Below are positions 36,688 to 43,537 of a stretch of DNA of 64,000 nucleotides, piece by piece. The translations under genes were made by a program, and so were the position numbers. Numbering within the stretch: position 1 is the first letter of the stretch; each line of letters begins with the position of its first letter. Where the stretch lies: the NCBI RefSeq assembly GCF_000787815.1, contig NZ_BBPO01000013.1, positions 1 through 64,000 of the forward strand. The letters run 5' to 3'. Source of the DNA: Streptacidiphilus neutrinimicus. Lineage in GTDB: Bacteria; Actinomycetota; Actinomycetes; Streptomycetales; Streptomycetaceae. A model generated the notes under the pieces. That model ran no database searches. It saw nothing but the letters and a program-made list of their open reading frames with translations, and had not been told where the DNA came from.

Positions 36688-36807
36688 GTCGATGGGCCTA
36701 TAGGTCTCGGGTCTCGACATGCCTTCGAGCAGCCTGCGAGACGGGGGCGGCAACCTCTCCGGAACCGCCGGTCCGCGGCGGAGGAGGTTTCACGATCGGA
36801 GGCAGTG

Positions 36808-36948
36808 ATGGGCATCCGCGACACCAAGAAGGCGCTCGACAGCTCCAGCGTTTCCGAGGAGTCCGACCTGGCCATGACCTCGCTCAGCGAGGAGGAGGAC
36901 AGCTACGACGCCCCCAAGACGATCATGAACCAGATCAGCGCCGCCTGA
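36808..36948 (+). CDS. Short acidic peptide, probable RiPP precursor
   Basis: A 46-residue peptide, too short for most annotation; ATG 36808 has GGAGG (36798-36802) at 5 bases. It starts MGIRDTKKALDSSSVSEESD, has a very acidic middle (LSEEEDSYD) and a short C-terminal part APKTIMNQISAA with no Cys. The leader-like acidic stretch and small C-terminal core, followed by a hairpin and an operon of two Fe(II)/2-oxoglutarate-type oxygenases, a GNAT and an exporter, suggest a ribosomally made, modified peptide. Lys37, Asn41, Asp34 or Thr38 would be natural targets for hydroxylation or acylation. The call is inference from context. Confidence 0.6.
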   Translation: MGIRDTKKALDSSSVSEESDLAMTSLSEEEDSYDAPKTIMNQISAA

Positions 36949-36957
36949 CGTTCCACG

Positions 36958-36991
36958 GAGCTCCGGTCGGGCCTGCGCCCGTCCGGAGCTC
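36958..36991 (+). terminator. Attenuator-like hairpin between peptide gene and operon
   Basis: Arms 36958-36972 and 36977-36991 pair at 14 of 15 positions over a CTGC loop, starting 9 bases after the peptide stop. In precursor operons such hairpins let more precursor than enzyme mRNA be made. Confidence 0.7.
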
Positions 36992-37041
36992 GGTTCGGCG
37001 AGACCACCGGGAAGGGATAGAGCGGAGAGCGGGAGCGAACC

Positions 37042-37902
37042 ATGGCGGCATCACTCGTCGACGTCCTGAAGGACGGCGGGACCTTCACCGAACACTGGGG
37101 CCGGGAACACCAGATCCTGCGCGGAGCGGTGGATCCCGCCGACTACATCACCACCGACCTCATCGAGGAGAAGCTCGACTCCAGCCTGCTGCGCTGGCCG
37201 TACTTCTCCGTACTCCGGGACGGGGCCGTCCCGCACACCGAGCACTACACCACCGTCCGGGATGTCATCGGCCACCAGCGCGACGGCTTCCCCGACCCGG
37301 TGGCCATCCGCCGCCTCATGGCGGCGGGCGGCACGCTCAAGCTCAACCAGCTCTCGCACTGGCACCGGCCGACCCGCCGTCTGGTGGAGCAGATCGAGGC
37401 AGTCGTCCCCGCCGCCGTCGACTCCTACGTCTTCTGGACCCCGCCCCAGCGCCGCGGCATGCTGCCGCACCGCGACGCCTCGCACGTGCTGGCGATCCAG
37501 CTGCACGGGCGCAAGGAGTGGCAACTGTTCGCCCAGGACGGCCAGATCCGCAGCGGCGCGGGTCTGGACGTGGACGCCGAGCGGCCGAGCCACACGTTCG
37601 TGCTGGAGCCCGGCGACGTCCTCTACCTCCCGCACGGCTGGCCGCACGACGCGGTGGCCCGGGACGGCGACTCGCTGCACCTGACGCTGACGCTGACCGA
37701 GCCCACCCCCGACGACCTGCTCCAGGCGCTCGTCAACCACCTGGTGGAGACGGACTGGGAGCTGATGCACCGCTTCCACGCCACCACCCTGGAGCAGCGC
37801 ACCGAGAACACCCGCGCCGCCCTGCTGCACGGCGCCGGCCGACTGGACGACAGCGCCTGGACGCAGCTGGCGCTGGCCTCGATGCGGGAGGTGACCGGAT
37901 GA
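37042..37902 (+). CDS. JmjC/cupin-type Fe(II)/2-oxoglutarate oxygenase 1
   Basis: A 286-residue protein from ATG 37042. The metal triad is visible: His143-x-Asp145 (MLPHRDASHVL) and His202 (LYLPHGWPHDA), with Lys158 (GRKEW) a likely 2-oxoglutarate contact. This is the JmjC/cupin_4 fold of ribosomal oxygenase-like hydroxylases (RoxA/YcfD type), which hydroxylate Arg, His, Asp or Asn of protein substrates. It is preceded by the peptide gene and hairpin and overlaps the next oxygenase gene by ATGA. The likely substrate is the upstream 46-residue peptide (inference). Confidence 0.85.
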   Translation: MAASLVDVLKDGGTFTEHWGREHQILRGAVDPADYITTDLIEEKLDSSLLRWPYFSVLRDGAVPHTEHYTTVRDVIGHQRDGFPDPVAIRRLMAAGGTLKLNQLSHWHRPTRRLVEQIEAVVPAAVDSYVFWTPPQRRGMLPHRDASHVLAIQLHGRKEWQLFAQDGQIRSGAGLDVDAERPSHTFVLEPGDVLYLPHGWPHDAVARDGDSLHLTLTLTEPTPDDLLQALVNHLVETDWELMHRFHATTLEQRTENTRAALLHGAGRLDDSAWTQLALASMREVTG

Positions 37903-38798
37903 GCGACAGGACCGGCGAGGCGCCCACCACCCTCGCCCAACTCGTGGGGGATGTCGACGACTTCTTCCAGAACCACTGGGGCAGCCAGCCCGTGGTGTTC
38001 CGCTCCTCGGCCGAGCTGCCGGCGCTGATCAGCGAGGAGGAGATGTGGGAGGAGCTGGACTGCGGTCTGCTGATCCGGCCCTACTTCACCGCCTTCGACG
38101 AGGGCGTGCGCAGCGCGGTGTCCGACATGACCCGCCGCCGCCACATCGCCGGACACGTCATCCCCGGCTACGTCAACGAGAAGCACATCCGTGAGGAGTT
38201 CGCGGCCGGCGGCACGTTCAAGTTCAGCCAGGCCGAGCACTGGCACCCGCGGATCAGGGCTCTGGTGAAGGGCCTGGAGCCGGAGTTCCGCGCGGGGCTC
38301 GAAGCGTTCGTCTTCCTCAGCCCGCCCGGCAAGACCGCGATCGCCGCCCACATGGACGGGGCGCACGTCTTCGTGCTCCAGGTGGCGGGGATCAAGGACT
38401 GGGTCGTCGGGCGGCTCGACGAGACCTCGATCAGCGACTCCACCCGCTACACGGGCGGGGTGATCCCGGCCGACCGCCGGGTGGAGGTGACCCTGCGTCC
38501 CGGCGACGTCCTCTACATGCCGCACGGCACCCCGCACTCCGCCACCGCGCGGCTGGGCAACTCGATCCACGTGGCGATCACCATCGAGGAGCCGAGCACC
38601 CAGGACCTCGCCCAGGTCTTCCTCGCCGAACTCCTCGACGACCCGCGCTACGTGGAGCTGACCGAGCAGCACCACCAGCAGACGCCCGCCGAGCGGTTCG
38701 CCGCGCTGCGCGCCGTGCTGACAGACCGTCTGGAGAATGCCGAGGGCGGCCAGGTGCTCAAGTCCGCGGTGCGGCTGAAGGCGGAGCACCTCGGGTAG
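37899..38798 (+). CDS. JmjC/cupin-type Fe(II)/2-oxoglutarate oxygenase 2
   Basis: A 299-residue protein from ATG 37899, sharing ATGA with the previous gene. The triad is His151-x-Asp153 (IAAHMDGAHVF) and His213 (YMPHGTPHSA); Lys166 follows. It is a diverged paralogue of the upstream oxygenase, with similar layout from HWGSQPVVF at the N-terminus to the helical tail. Two different hydroxylases in tandem suggest two modifications on one substrate, or a heterodimer. Confidence 0.85.
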   Translation: MSDRTGEAPTTLAQLVGDVDDFFQNHWGSQPVVFRSSAELPALISEEEMWEELDCGLLIRPYFTAFDEGVRSAVSDMTRRRHIAGHVIPGYVNEKHIREEFAAGGTFKFSQAEHWHPRIRALVKGLEPEFRAGLEAFVFLSPPGKTAIAAHMDGAHVFVLQVAGIKDWVVGRLDETSISDSTRYTGGVIPADRRVEVTLRPGDVLYMPHGTPHSATARLGNSIHVAITIEEPSTQDLAQVFLAELLDDPRYVELTEQHHQQTPAERFAALRAVLTDRLENAEGGQVLKSAVRLKAEHLG

Positions 38799-38808
38799 GA
38801 CCGCTCCC

Positions 38809-39390
38809 ATGGACATCCACAACCGGACCGGCGGCAACCCGGGCGACGGCGACGGGCGCGGCGGCGACGAGGTCACGCTGCGCCCGGTGACCGCCGAGGA
38901 TCTGGACCGCTTCGACGCGGAGTTCGCCGGGCCCGAAGGGCCGGGGCCCTACCAGTGGTTCGGCTGGACGCCGACCCTGCGCCTACGCGAACTGCACGCC
39001 CAGCGCGGGCTGCTGGGCGGCGACGAGAACATGCTGTCGGTGACGGCGGGCGGGGAGCTGGCCGGGCGCGTCGAGTGGTTCCGCCGCGCGTGGGGGCGCG
39101 CCGACACCTCCTGGTGCTGGGAGATCGCCATCGGCCTCTTCCCGGGAGCCCGCGGCAAGGGCATCGGCACGGAGGCGCAACGGCGGCTGGCGGCCTACCT
39201 GTTCACCCACACCAGGGTCGAGCGGATCCAGGTGACCACGGACGCCGACAACGTCCCCGAGCAGCGGGCCCTCGAGAAGGCGGGCTTCCGTCTGGAGGGC
39301 AGGCTGCGTCGCGCGCAGTGGCGCGCCGGGGACTGGCACGATCAGTTGATCTTTTCGCTCCTCCGTCCGGAGTGGTCGGAGGCACCCTAA
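38809..39390 (+). CDS. GNAT acetyltransferase (RimJ/RimL-like)
   Basis: A 193-residue protein from ATG 38809, 10 bases after the oxygenase stop. The acetyl-CoA motif is GLFPGARGKGIGTEAQRRLA (about 106-125), followed by TTDADNVPEQRALEKAGFRL, the RimJ/RimL (GNAT_3) ending. In peptide clusters such enzymes N-acylate the mature peptide, a Lys side chain or a resistance target. The position inside the operon supports a role in tailoring or self-protection. Confidence 0.8.
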   Translation: MDIHNRTGGNPGDGDGRGGDEVTLRPVTAEDLDRFDAEFAGPEGPGPYQWFGWTPTLRLRELHAQRGLLGGDENMLSVTAGGELAGRVEWFRRAWGRADTSWCWEIAIGLFPGARGKGIGTEAQRRLAAYLFTHTRVERIQVTTDADNVPEQRALEKAGFRLEGRLRRAQWRAGDWHDQLIFSLLRPEWSEAP

Positions 39391-39415
39391 CCACCGCGAC
39401 GTCCGGGAGGCCGAT

Positions 39416-40711
39416 GTGCGATCCCTGCTCACGTCCCTGCAGGGCCCCATGCGGACGCTGGCCCTGCTGCACGGCATCGACGGCGTCGGCGGCGGCTTCT
39501 TCGTCGCGGGGGTCGCGGTCTACCTCACGCAGGTGACCCACCTGAGCGCGGAGCAGATCGGCACCGGCCTCACCGTGGGCGGGCTGATGGGGCTGACGGC
39601 GCCGGTGATGTCCGGGGCTTTGGCCGACACCCTCGGCGCGCGCAGGCATCTGGCCGGACGCCTGGTCGTGCTCGGCTGCGGCTTCCTGGTCTATCCGGCG
39701 GTGAGCGCGGCCTGGCAGTTCTACCTGCTGGCCGGGTTCCTCGGGGCGCTGCAGTTCGGCCTGGGCCCGTCGTTCGTGGCGCTCATCGCGGAGTTCGCCC
39801 CCGAGGAGACGCGGGTGACGACCCGGGCGGCGATCCGCGCCGTCGGCAACGCCAGCATGGGCCTGGGCACGCTGGCCGCCGCGTTGCTCGCCGCCCTCGG
39901 CAGCCACCCGATGCTCCAGCTCTTTCCGCTGGTGAACGGCGCCTCGTTCGTCGTCGCGGGGCTGCTGGTGCTGCGGCTGCCGAGGACCGAGGTCCGCCCG
40001 GGCCCGGGGGGAGGGCTGCGACTGGTGGCGCTGCGCGACCGGCGCCTGCAGCGGGTGGTCGCCGTCAACGCGCTGCTCGGCCTGCACGACACCGTGCTGA
40101 GCATCGGCATCCCGCTGTGGATCATCGTCGGGACCCACCTGCCCAAGGCGACGATCCCGCTGCTGATCGGCCTGAACACGGTGCTCGTGGTACTGCTGCA
40201 GATGCGCTTCGCCCGGGGCGCGGAGGAGCTTTCGGGCGCAGCCCGGGTGGCCCGGCGCGCGGGGCTGGCCGGGGCCGCGGGCTGCCTGCCGCTGGCGGTC
40301 TCCGGGGCCGTGCCGCTGTGGGCCGCGGCGGCCCTGGTCGTGCTGGCGCTGGTCCTGGTCACCGCTGCCGAACTGTGGCACTCGGCGAGCGCGTTCAGCC
40401 TGGGCTTCGCGGTCGCGCCGGAGGAGCGGCGCAGCGAGTACCTGGGCGCGTTCCAGCTCTACCACAGCCTGCAGACGGTGCTCGGCCCGTTGCTGCTCGC
40501 GGCGCTGGTCGGAACCGGCCACGGCGGCGGCTGGCTGGTGGTGGCCGCCCTGTTCGGTGCGGCCGGGCTGCTGGTGCCCCCGATCGTCGCGGGCATCCGG
40601 CCGCAGGAGCGGCAGCAGGATCACGGGCAGGAACAGGAGCGGGAGCGGGCCGCCGCGCCAGCGGATGAGCGCGCGCCCGCCTCCGTCGCGGCCGCGCCGT
40701 CCGAGTCGTAG
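39416..40711 (+). CDS. MFS transporter
   Basis: A 431-residue membrane protein with about 12 helices, from GTG 39416 with GGGAGG 5 bases upstream. Motif-A-like GALADTLGARRHLAGRLVVL lies between helices 2 and 3, and the second half repeats the pattern. The hydrophilic tail is rich in Glu/Gln/Ala. Drug-exporter type, likely secreting the peptide product of this cluster. It overlaps no gene but is only 25 bases after the GNAT. Confidence 0.85.
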   Translation: MRSLLTSLQGPMRTLALLHGIDGVGGGFFVAGVAVYLTQVTHLSAEQIGTGLTVGGLMGLTAPVMSGALADTLGARRHLAGRLVVLGCGFLVYPAVSAAWQFYLLAGFLGALQFGLGPSFVALIAEFAPEETRVTTRAAIRAVGNASMGLGTLAAALLAALGSHPMLQLFPLVNGASFVVAGLLVLRLPRTEVRPGPGGGLRLVALRDRRLQRVVAVNALLGLHDTVLSIGIPLWIIVGTHLPKATIPLLIGLNTVLVVLLQMRFARGAEELSGAARVARRAGLAGAAGCLPLAVSGAVPLWAAAALVVLALVLVTAAELWHSASAFSLGFAVAPEERRSEYLGAFQLYHSLQTVLGPLLLAALVGTGHGGGWLVVAALFGAAGLLVPPIVAGIRPQERQQDHGQEQERERAAAPADERAPASVAAAPSES

Positions 40712-40742
40712 CGGCCGCCGACCCGACCGAGGAGGACGTCCC

Positions 40743-41624
40743 GTGCTGCACCCCGCCGCCGAAGAAGGCACGCCGGGCCCCTTCGGGCGCCGCGCGCTGA
40801 CGGAGGATCTGGAGGCCCTCGGCCTGCGCCGCGGCGACACGGTGATCGTGCACTGCTCGCTGCGCTCGCTGGGCTGGACGATCGGCGGAGGCGTCGCCCT
40901 GCTGGTCGCGCTCCGCGACGCCCTCGGACCGCAGGGGACCGTGGTGGTGCCGACGTTCACCACCTACCTGTGCGATCCGGCCACCTGGGTCCGCCGCCGG
41001 GTCCCCGAGGAGTGGTGGCCACGGATCCGTGCGAGCCTGCCGCCCTTCGACCCCGAGGTGCATCCCGCACAGCCGAGCCTCGGCCGGTTCCCGGAGCTGG
41101 TGCGAGCCTGCCGGACCGCGCGTCGCTCCGCCCACCCGCTCTACTCCTTCGCGGCGTTGGGACCCGCGGCACAGGAGGTCCTGGCCCCGCACCCGCTCGA
41201 CTACGGACTGGGCGCCGGCGGCCCGCTCGGCGCGCTGCTGCGGCTCAACGCCCGGGTGCTGCTGCTGGGCGTCGGCTGGGACAAGGCCACGCTGCTGCAC
41301 CTGCCGGAGCACCTGACCGACTTCCGCGGCCGCCGCAGCCACGTCATCGCGGTGCCCGAGGCTGGCGCCGACGGCGCGACCAGGTGGCGGGAGACCACGC
41401 AACTGGTGATGTACGAAGGCGACTTCCCCGCGGTCGCGGACTCCCTGCGCGGTGCGGCCGCGCCGCGTCTGGGCCGCGTCGGGGCGGCGGAGGCCAGGCT
41501 CTGCGAGGGCCGGCCCCTGGTGGACGCGGCCTGCCTCCGGATGGCGCGGCACCGGGACTTCACCCGCTCGGCGATGGGCCCGCACCTCGTCGGGATCGCT
41601 CCCGCGCCTGCGGCCGCGCTGTAG
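40743..41624 (+). CDS. AAC(3)-family N-acetyltransferase
   Basis: A 293-residue protein from GTG 40743 (GGAGG 7 bases upstream). The family pattern of aminoglycoside 3-N-acetyltransferases is clear: LGLRRGDTVIVHCSLRSLGW, PQGTVVVPTFTTYL, PSLGRFPELVRAC, RRSAHPLYSFAALGP and LLLGVGWDKATLLHLPEH. Members also acetylate non-aminoglycoside amines, for example in phosphonopeptide pathways. In this operon it may acylate the peptide product or give self-protection. A true aminoglycoside substrate is not implied. Confidence 0.85.
   Translation: MLHPAAEEGTPGPFGRRALTEDLEALGLRRGDTVIVHCSLRSLGWTIGGGVALLVALRDALGPQGTVVVPTFTTYLCDPATWVRRRVPEEWWPRIRASLPPFDPEVHPAQPSLGRFPELVRACRTARRSAHPLYSFAALGPAAQEVLAPHPLDYGLGAGGPLGALLRLNARVLLLGVGWDKATLLHLPEHLTDFRGRRSHVIAVPEAGADGATRWRETTQLVMYEGDFPAVADSLRGAAAPRLGRVGAAEARLCEGRPLVDAACLRMARHRDFTRSAMGPHLVGIAPAPAAAL

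Positions 41625-41830: not shown

Positions 41831-43537
<1,707 letters not shown>

Follow-up and report, generated by a model that had tools for sequence, protein, structure and literature searches.

The JmjC protein BipG gamma-hydroxylates an ornithine residue in the precursor of a ribosomally synthesised and post-translationally modified peptide (RiPP) in vitro (PMC12707348). Here, a cassette of six genes was analysed in a stretch of 64,000 nt from Streptacidiphilus neutrinimicus, which is referred to as a whole as the window. The cassette comprises a gene for a 46-residue peptide, two adjoining genes for JmjC oxygenases, J1 and J2, and genes for two acetyltransferases and a transporter. Judged by its sequence, it is probably a RiPP cluster in which the paired oxygenases, both of the ribosomal oxygenase (ROX) type, would modify the C-terminal ~12 residues of the precursor. 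Like the biphenomycin RiPPs, which employ the JmjC proteins BipG/BpmG and the cupin PbsQ, the cassette would rely on a JmjC oxygenase acting on a residue of a gene-encoded precursor, and a gene of the major facilitator superfamily (MFS) is mentioned for the biphenomycin pbs cluster as well (PMC12707348, PMC12257519). Unlike the window, the biphenomycin clusters hold one JmjC gene rather than a tandem pair and encode a Phe-Arg-Phe core. They also carry a multinuclear non-haem iron-dependent oxidative enzyme (MNIO), a B12 radical S-adenosylmethionine (SAM) enzyme, an Arg-to-Orn enzyme and a metallopeptidase (PMC12707348, PMC12257519). All four were missing from the window cassette. A biphenomycin-type RiPP was rejected because no MNIO, B12 radical SAM enzyme or arginase was present among the six genes.

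Other described systems share single components with the cassette or its relatives. RoxA and YcaO modify the neighbouring residues Arg81 and Met82 of Escherichia coli uL16 (PMC13063428). Cupin-4 enzymes occur with NHLP-type precursors in sponge metagenomes, which is another hint of JmjC_2-type RiPPs (PMC9426513). Bacterial relatives of a set of eukaryotic fusions of JmjC with a RiPP recognition element lie in RiPP-like contexts, the window family not being named there (PMC12710340). The cluster of Streptacidiphilus carbonis NBRC 100919, which is locus L065 of the family described below, was named for two TfuA and three YcaO genes (PMC8120280). RiPPER Network 2 consists of 25 Streptomyces peptides (PMC6511847), which might correspond to the window family.

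Organisation of the cassette

All six genes were located on the forward strand in the order peptide, J1, J2, GNAT, MFS transporter and AAC(3)-like enzyme, with a stem-loop after the peptide gene. This layout, which the original prediction had described as a 46-codon gene with a good ribosome-binding site, a hairpin, an ATGA-coupled JmjC pair, a GNAT, an MFS transporter and an AAC(3)-family enzyme on one strand, was borne out by direct reading and by Pfam. The features were as follows.

36798..36802, forward strand: ribosome-binding site GGAGG of the peptide gene, read from the sequence, five bases before the ATG
36808..36948, forward strand: putative precursor peptide gene, 46 residues, MGIRDTKKALDSSSVSEESDLAMTSLSEEEDSYDAPKTIMNQISAA, with the ATG at 36808 and the stop ending at 36948; both ends conserved in relatives, pN/pS below 1 in 6/6 pairs
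36910..36945, forward strand: proposed core region A35-A46 (APKTIMNQISAA), with the C-terminal motif in 23/27 loci and an inferred border
36958..36991, forward strand: GC-rich stem-loop between the peptide gene and J1, from folding; a stem in the same gap in 8/8 loci folded
37042..37902, forward strand: J1, ROX-type JmjC oxygenase of 286 residues, triad H143/D145/H202, from Pfam, alignment and model
37899..38798, forward strand: J2, ROX-type JmjC oxygenase of 299 residues, triad H151/D153/H213, 35% identical to J1, from Pfam, alignment and model
38809..39390, forward strand: GNAT acetyltransferase (PF13302), from Pfam; present in L031-L033
39416..40711, forward strand: MFS transporter (PF07690), probable exporter by sequence, from Pfam; present in L031-L033
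40743..41624, forward strand: AAC(3)-fold acetyltransferase (PF02522), nearest solved relative FrbF, from Pfam and a structure-database match

The genes of J1 and J2 overlap through ATGA. The AAC(3)-like gene most likely starts at the predicted GTG at 40743, which was preferred because the longest open reading frame (ORF), beginning at 40557, would overlap the MFS gene.

Distribution of the cassette

The cassette is real, conserved and rare. The same six genes were detected in the same order on plasmids of Streptomyces NBC_00316, HUAS 15-9 and NBC_00876, whose J1 proteins were 68-72% identical to that of the window. The flanks differed on these three plasmids, and the cassette was therefore delimited as the six genes. 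A plasmid of Mycolicibacterium arabiense held the peptide, J1, J2 and AAC(3) genes only. A family of 28 loci (WIN, L031-L035, L042, L043 and L048-L067) was obtained from a pattern scan of 84,980 species genomes together with plasmid and genome searches. Overlapping contigs were counted once, G022:C252 being represented by L049, G002:C86 by L065 and the match in G182 by L042, and the loci formed 24 clusters at 90% J1 identity. The scan relied on just three short patterns, and under-sampling of the family is therefore certain. At E 1e-20, 86 of 297 genomes contained matches. Only the eight at E 1e-57 or better, with the window genome among them, and G035 (L043) were assigned from these to the family, the remaining matches being distant. 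Counting the window genome itself, relatives were found in 8 of 394 Streptomycetaceae genomes at E 1e-45, in 3 of 14 genomes of the genus at 1e-40 and, at the same threshold, in 2 of 396 genomes of the phylum sample and 2 of 394 of the class sample. No relative was confirmed among 38 pattern matches in viral contigs.

YcaO and TfuA genes were present in 23 of the 28 loci, the five loci without them being the window, L031-L033 and L035. S9 peptidases were encoded in 17 loci, with a further weak antisense match in L064, and M16 peptidases in seven; single copies from L034 and L048 were checked by Pfam. The whole window genome contained no TfuA gene, and its three YcaO genes were located on other contigs (C163, C144) and not in the cassette. 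TfuA-dependent thioamidation in the window was rejected, since both YcaO and TfuA are absent from the cassette and TfuA from the genome.

Some loci showed additional neighbours. A transketolase-type gene with pyrimidine-binding and C-terminal domains was located near the peptide gene in L042, L056-L061 and L063, accompanied in some by an aldo/keto reductase. In L043 (9700-15023), relatives of J1/J2 and YcaO-TfuA adjoined a Cys-rich precursor, which appeared thiopeptide-like by eye. Directly after the window cassette, at 41852-43537, a GMC oxidoreductase weakly like cholesterol oxidase was encoded, which did not adjoin the cassette in L031-L033.

The precursor peptide

Conservation of the peptide in relatives had been set beforehand as a test of the original prediction. 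The peptide was conserved at both ends as far as the Mycolicibacterium plasmid, while the spacers diverged. The C-terminus reads ..DSYDAPKTIMNQISAA in the window and ..DLFDSPKTIMNQISAA, ..DAFDSPKTIMNQISNA and ..DVFDSPKTIMNQISNA on the three Streptomyces plasmids. The peptide of the Mycolicibacterium arabiense plasmid has 60 residues, starting with MGIRDVRKQLD and ending with NRATLNMITQA. The C-terminal motif ..[Q/E/N/M]-I-[S/N/D/T]-x-A was shared by most loci of the family, and within each peptide type the resemblance spanned the last 10-11 residues, beginning at Pro. The ratio of nonsynonymous to synonymous change (pN/pS) was 0.30-0.79 in all six pairs of the four peptides from the window and the three Streptomyces plasmids, values that come from short sequences and carry no significance test.

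The motif was scored as an ORF of at least 25 codons ending in [IVLM]x(1-2)[QENM]I[SNDT]xA and lying at most 250 bases upstream of J1. The record of L067 begins inside J1 and was not testable for an upstream peptide. In 23 of the 27 testable loci a motif ORF preceded J1, representing 23 of the 89 ORF ends in that interval. Elsewhere in these 27 sources, the motif was absent from all 8,373 remaining ORF ends. It was also absent from all 10,351 ORF ends of 55 loci that comprised L043 and the surroundings of less closely related JmjC genes (L009-L030, L043-L047, L068-L080 and L087-L101). Near-motif peptides were present in L063 (..MVIGVINEA) and L065 (..PVLLENIDD), and a recognisable short peptide lay upstream in 25 of the 27 testable loci, or 25 of 28 if L099, a locus left out of the family count, is added. 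The oxygenases are therefore not routinely found apart from the short gene. A conserved gene-encoded peptide beside modifying enzymes constitutes genetic evidence for a RiPP, with a leader/core border that is itself predicted. As stated in the original prediction, the peptide contained no Cys among its 46 residues, and lanthipeptide and sactipeptide chemistry, held there to be unlikely, was rejected on this ground.

The window stem-loop consisted of 9 bp, a T-T mismatch, 5 bp and a 4-base loop, and no U-tract followed it. It was only modestly better than shuffled sequences (z -1.71), 14 of 200 shuffles being equally good. A long GC-rich stem was present in the gap between peptide and J1 in all eight spacers folded, namely the window and seven relatives from the 27 loci with a testable spacer, with z from -0.51 to -3.10. 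No helix sequence was common to four aligned spacers. The stem-loop was not used as an argument for a RiPP because single folds were weak and the four aligned spacers shared no helix sequence.

The paired oxygenases

Both oxygenases matched PF08007 (JmjC_2), J1 with E 3.1e-23 and 82.1 bits and J2 with E 1.3e-18 and 67.2 bits, against a gathering score of 22. The full HxD..H iron triads claimed from the sequence were confirmed by alignment at the residues listed above, and the two triads aligned with each other. AlphaFold2 models had predicted local distance difference test (pLDDT) values of 88.3 for J1 and 86.9 for J2. The best Foldseek matches of both models were NO66, MINA53 and YcfD, with E down to 1.5e-18 for J1 and 5.5e-18 for J2; these hydroxylases of ribosomal proteins were also nearest in sequence. 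Compared by VIA, the J1 model aligned to NO66 4ccn with Z 23.4 and a root-mean-square deviation (rmsd) of 6.5 over 253 residues, and to YcfD 4ccl with Z 19.0 and rmsd 4.5 over 240 residues. Residues 3-286 of the J1 model aligned to residues 2-279 of the 372 residues of YcfD. The alignment stopped, at the last residue of J1, at YcfD 279, and the C-terminal domain is therefore missing; in YcfD this part is a winged helix. The dimer of ROX enzymes is formed by the helices that follow the JmjC barrel, a mode that would, by analogy, suit a J1-J2 heterodimer.

The J1 triad was intact in 27 of 28 loci, the exception being L043. For J2, the triad was scored in 27 loci, the J2 of L065 not having been retrieved. 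Fifteen of these loci (window, L031-L035, L043, L048-L055) retained it, and the 12 others (L042, L056-L064, L066, L067) had a broken triad; the rows of the latter are divergent in the alignment, so that individual lost residues are less certain than the general loss. In these 12 loci the J2 gene still adjoined J1 as a pseudo-oxygenase partner. A third JmjC gene was added in L059-L061 and L067, in which J2 is dead, and L059-L061 also held a CmcI-like methyltransferase.

A tree was calculated from 105 JmjC rows, one of 106 having been dropped as too short. J1 and J2 made separate clades with support of 98/98 (J1, L099 included) and 100/97 (J2). The window proteins grouped with the plasmid trio in both clades (99/99 and 100/98). 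The single JmjC of L099, encoded beside YcaO-TfuA, fell within the J1 clade at the end of a long branch. The distance matrices of J1 and J2 agreed, with a Mantel r of 0.84 over 27 loci that was reached by none of 2000 permutations, and of 0.82 over 23 representatives, one per 90% cluster. Branch A comprised 14 loci (window, L031-L035, L048-L055), all with a full J2 triad, and their J2 proteins were 49-73% identical to that of the window. Branch B comprised 13 loci, and the triad was lost in all 12 that were scored. Of the 14 branch-A loci, 13 contained the AAC(3) gene; in the remaining one, L052, the record ends before its place. All 13 branch-B loci, as far as their DNA was available, lacked the gene, as did L043. 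An active J2, the AAC(3)-like enzyme and an 11-residue tail counted from Pro, where Pro is present, went together, and a dead J2 went with a 10-residue tail.

The AAC(3)-like enzyme

The best solved relatives of the AAC(3)-like enzyme were FrbF (PDB 3sma) with E 1.4e-62 and YokD with 3.9e-51, followed at 1.4e-45 by the best chain named as an aminoglycoside acetyltransferase. FrbF, of the FR-900098 pathway, acetylates a small aminophosphonate. With 185.9 bits, the window enzyme missed the curated cut-off of 270 of the NCBIfam model AAC_3. Given this score and FrbF as the nearest solved structure, the enzyme was not classed as an aminoglycoside AAC(3) resistance enzyme. By sequence, a role in biosynthesis or self-protection appears more likely than aminoglycoside resistance.

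Proposed pathway and alternative explanations

In the proposed pathway, the 46-residue peptide would be the precursor, with residues 1 to ~34 as leader and the core within the last ~12. J1 and J2, probably as a heterodimer, would bind to this precursor and hydroxylate side chains close to its C-terminal end. J1 would supply the constant activity, acting on the residues common to the cores, I-[S/T/N/D], which are I43-S44 in the window. A second activity would come from J2 and be retained solely in the branch whose cores carry [N/S]-[Q/M] ahead of that Ile, N41-Q42 in the window. Removal of the leader would follow, by a protease encoded outside the cassette. The GNAT and the FrbF-like acetyltransferase could acetylate the freed fragment, either as tailoring or for self-protection, and the MFS protein would export the acetylated fragment. 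The window branch would represent a version of the wider family without YcaO-TfuA thioamidation. Hydroxylation plus N-acylation, which the original prediction had read from the enzyme set, is thus a putative chemistry. The reading as a RiPP is strengthened because relatives carry YcaO, TfuA, S9 and M16 genes, which lay outside the view of the original prediction; these, and a peptide that tracks the oxygenases, support its RiPP-like assignment.

Several observations weigh against this reading. The product, its mass shift and the translation of the peptide are all predicted, as would be any bioactivity. Pfam recognised no leader protease or leader-binding domain in the window cassette, the S9/M16 peptidases being those of relatives. 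The motif was drawn up after viewing these peptides, so the contrast of 23/27 is partly circular and measures specificity rather than proving a prediction. The upstream peptide of L066 is doubtful and without the motif, L043 has no upstream peptide and a J1 without the triad, and L099, of the J1 clade with a triad intact by eye, lacked both a J2 hit and a motif peptide in the 16 kb available. The link between J2 and the AAC(3) gene rests on about one evolutionary split and is a hint only.

The short ORF might instead be a regulatory leader peptide of the oxygenase operon, an attenuator with the stem-loop as its terminator, and not a substrate. The arrangement of a short ORF and a stem-loop ahead of enzyme genes in 8/8 loci folded agrees with this. 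Conservation at the amino acid level at both peptide ends while the spacers diverged, the lack of a U-tract, and the YcaO and TfuA genes in 23/28 loci together with peptidases argue against it, and partial terminators are common after RiPP precursor genes. Attenuation is therefore considered very improbable. We give scarcely any credence to a resistance or detoxification unit, in which the acetyltransferases and the exporter would protect from an external drug and the substrate of the oxygenases would be a ribosomal protein, as for YcfD. The AAC(3) and GNAT folds and the MFS transporter fit such a unit, as do three copies on plasmids, although the collection searched contained plasmids only. 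Against it stand the score of the AAC(3)-like enzyme under the NCBI cut-off and the relatives' peptide-modifying enzymes and peptidases, and the conserved peptide would be left unexplained.

Two further explanations were weighed. The peptide might serve as a carrier on which one to few C-terminal residues are modified and cut off, as in scaffold-peptide pathways, yielding a very small amino-acid-like product whose amine is acetylated by the FrbF-like enzyme. FrbF is indeed closer than any chain named as an aminoglycoside acetyltransferase, and the conserved part of the peptide lies at its extreme C-terminus. A resemblance that extends over the last 10-11 residues from Pro suits a longer core, however, and Pfam recognised neither a peptide aminoacyl-tRNA ligase nor another enzyme of the carrier type among the six genes. 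Such a small product is considered unlikely. It is slightly less doubtful that J1 is catalytic and J2 a binding partner in the window as well, with the J2 triad kept but acting on the same residue or idle, a variant that is compatible with the RiPP reading. The 12 scored branch-B loci, in which a J2 gene without the triad remains beside J1, point in this direction, but the full triad in 14/14 branch-A loci at 49-73% identity argues for kept chemistry.

Other tandem JmjC pairs

Tandem JmjC pairs of other clades arose, according to the tree, by duplications separate from that of the window family. A second clade was represented in Streptomycetaceae by L046 and L087-L095. All ten loci fetched from it had precursors ending in CxxC[Y/H]PDV[I/M], with 63-69 residues and an Ala-rich hydrophobic stretch (e.g. 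L088:7169-7360). Tandem copies of the peptide gene occurred in L090 and L095, which had two each, and in L093, which had three. In the third clade, L044 (6800-18655) encoded three identical 28-residue peptides (..SYYTNIQ), two JmjC proteins, an MFS protein and M13, S9 and M1 peptidases in a row and is, by sequence, a candidate for a further RiPP cluster. L096 held one likely copy of such a peptide (..SYYKNIQ), and none was found in L045. Around the distant homologues L047, L068-L072 and L097-L101, no convincing upstream peptide was detected.

Tentatively, tandem ROX-type JmjC pairs might define a new actinomycete RiPP class with at least three separate duplications, giving the window, the CxxC-Y/H-PDV-I/M and the 25-28-residue SYY[T/K]NIQ families. 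The heterodimer would either keep both active sites or have one decayed to a binding subunit. The window pair would add two hydroxyls to the free C-terminal tail, and the FrbF-like enzyme would acetylate the product of the second. This wider proposal is possible, though not favoured. If it holds, peptide products have been missed, since to our knowledge a JmjC pair does not serve as a marker for RiPPs, and the window branch would have been missed also because the thioamide genes that reveal its relatives are absent there. The natural series of two active oxygenases, an active enzyme with a dead partner, and clusters with or without thioamidation genes would allow the function of every enzyme to be deduced from the product formed. 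Secreted peptides would also be linked to the chemistry of oxygenases that modify the ribosome.

Comparison with known systems

No paired-JmjC RiPP was recognised in the open-licence PMC literature searched, which covered articles without their supplements. The word JmjC did not occur in the main texts of PMC6511847 and PMC8120280, to which the count was confined. The claim that no named class has this gene set held in so far as no paired-JmjC RiPP was recognised; it fell short in that the YcaO-TfuA relatives had already been surveyed as thioamide clusters (PMC8120280). The cassette most probably represents a RiPP cluster belonging to a family that is undescribed in the literature searchable here, with relatives that are partly listed as thioamide clusters. 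The likeness to the YcaO-TfuA thioamidated RiPP clusters lies in the YcaO and TfuA genes of 23/28 loci of the J1/J2 family, from which the window branch differs in being without both (PMC6511847, PMC8120280).

FrbF is the best solved match of the PF02522 enzyme, and the substrate of the window enzyme may differ from that of FrbF. Like NO66, MINA53 and YcfD/RoxA, J1 and J2 have the PF08007 JmjC fold, the HxD..H triad and a helical part after the barrel. Unlike them, they are short, with 286-299 residues and the C-terminal part missing, and their genes are paired beside a small peptide gene. The double modification of uL16 is, by analogy, a parallel for the combined action of JmjC and YcaO proposed for the YcaO-bearing relatives (PMC13063428). 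The uL16 system differs from these relatives in its folded ribosomal protein substrate, in operating without TfuA and in having no exported product (PMC13063428).

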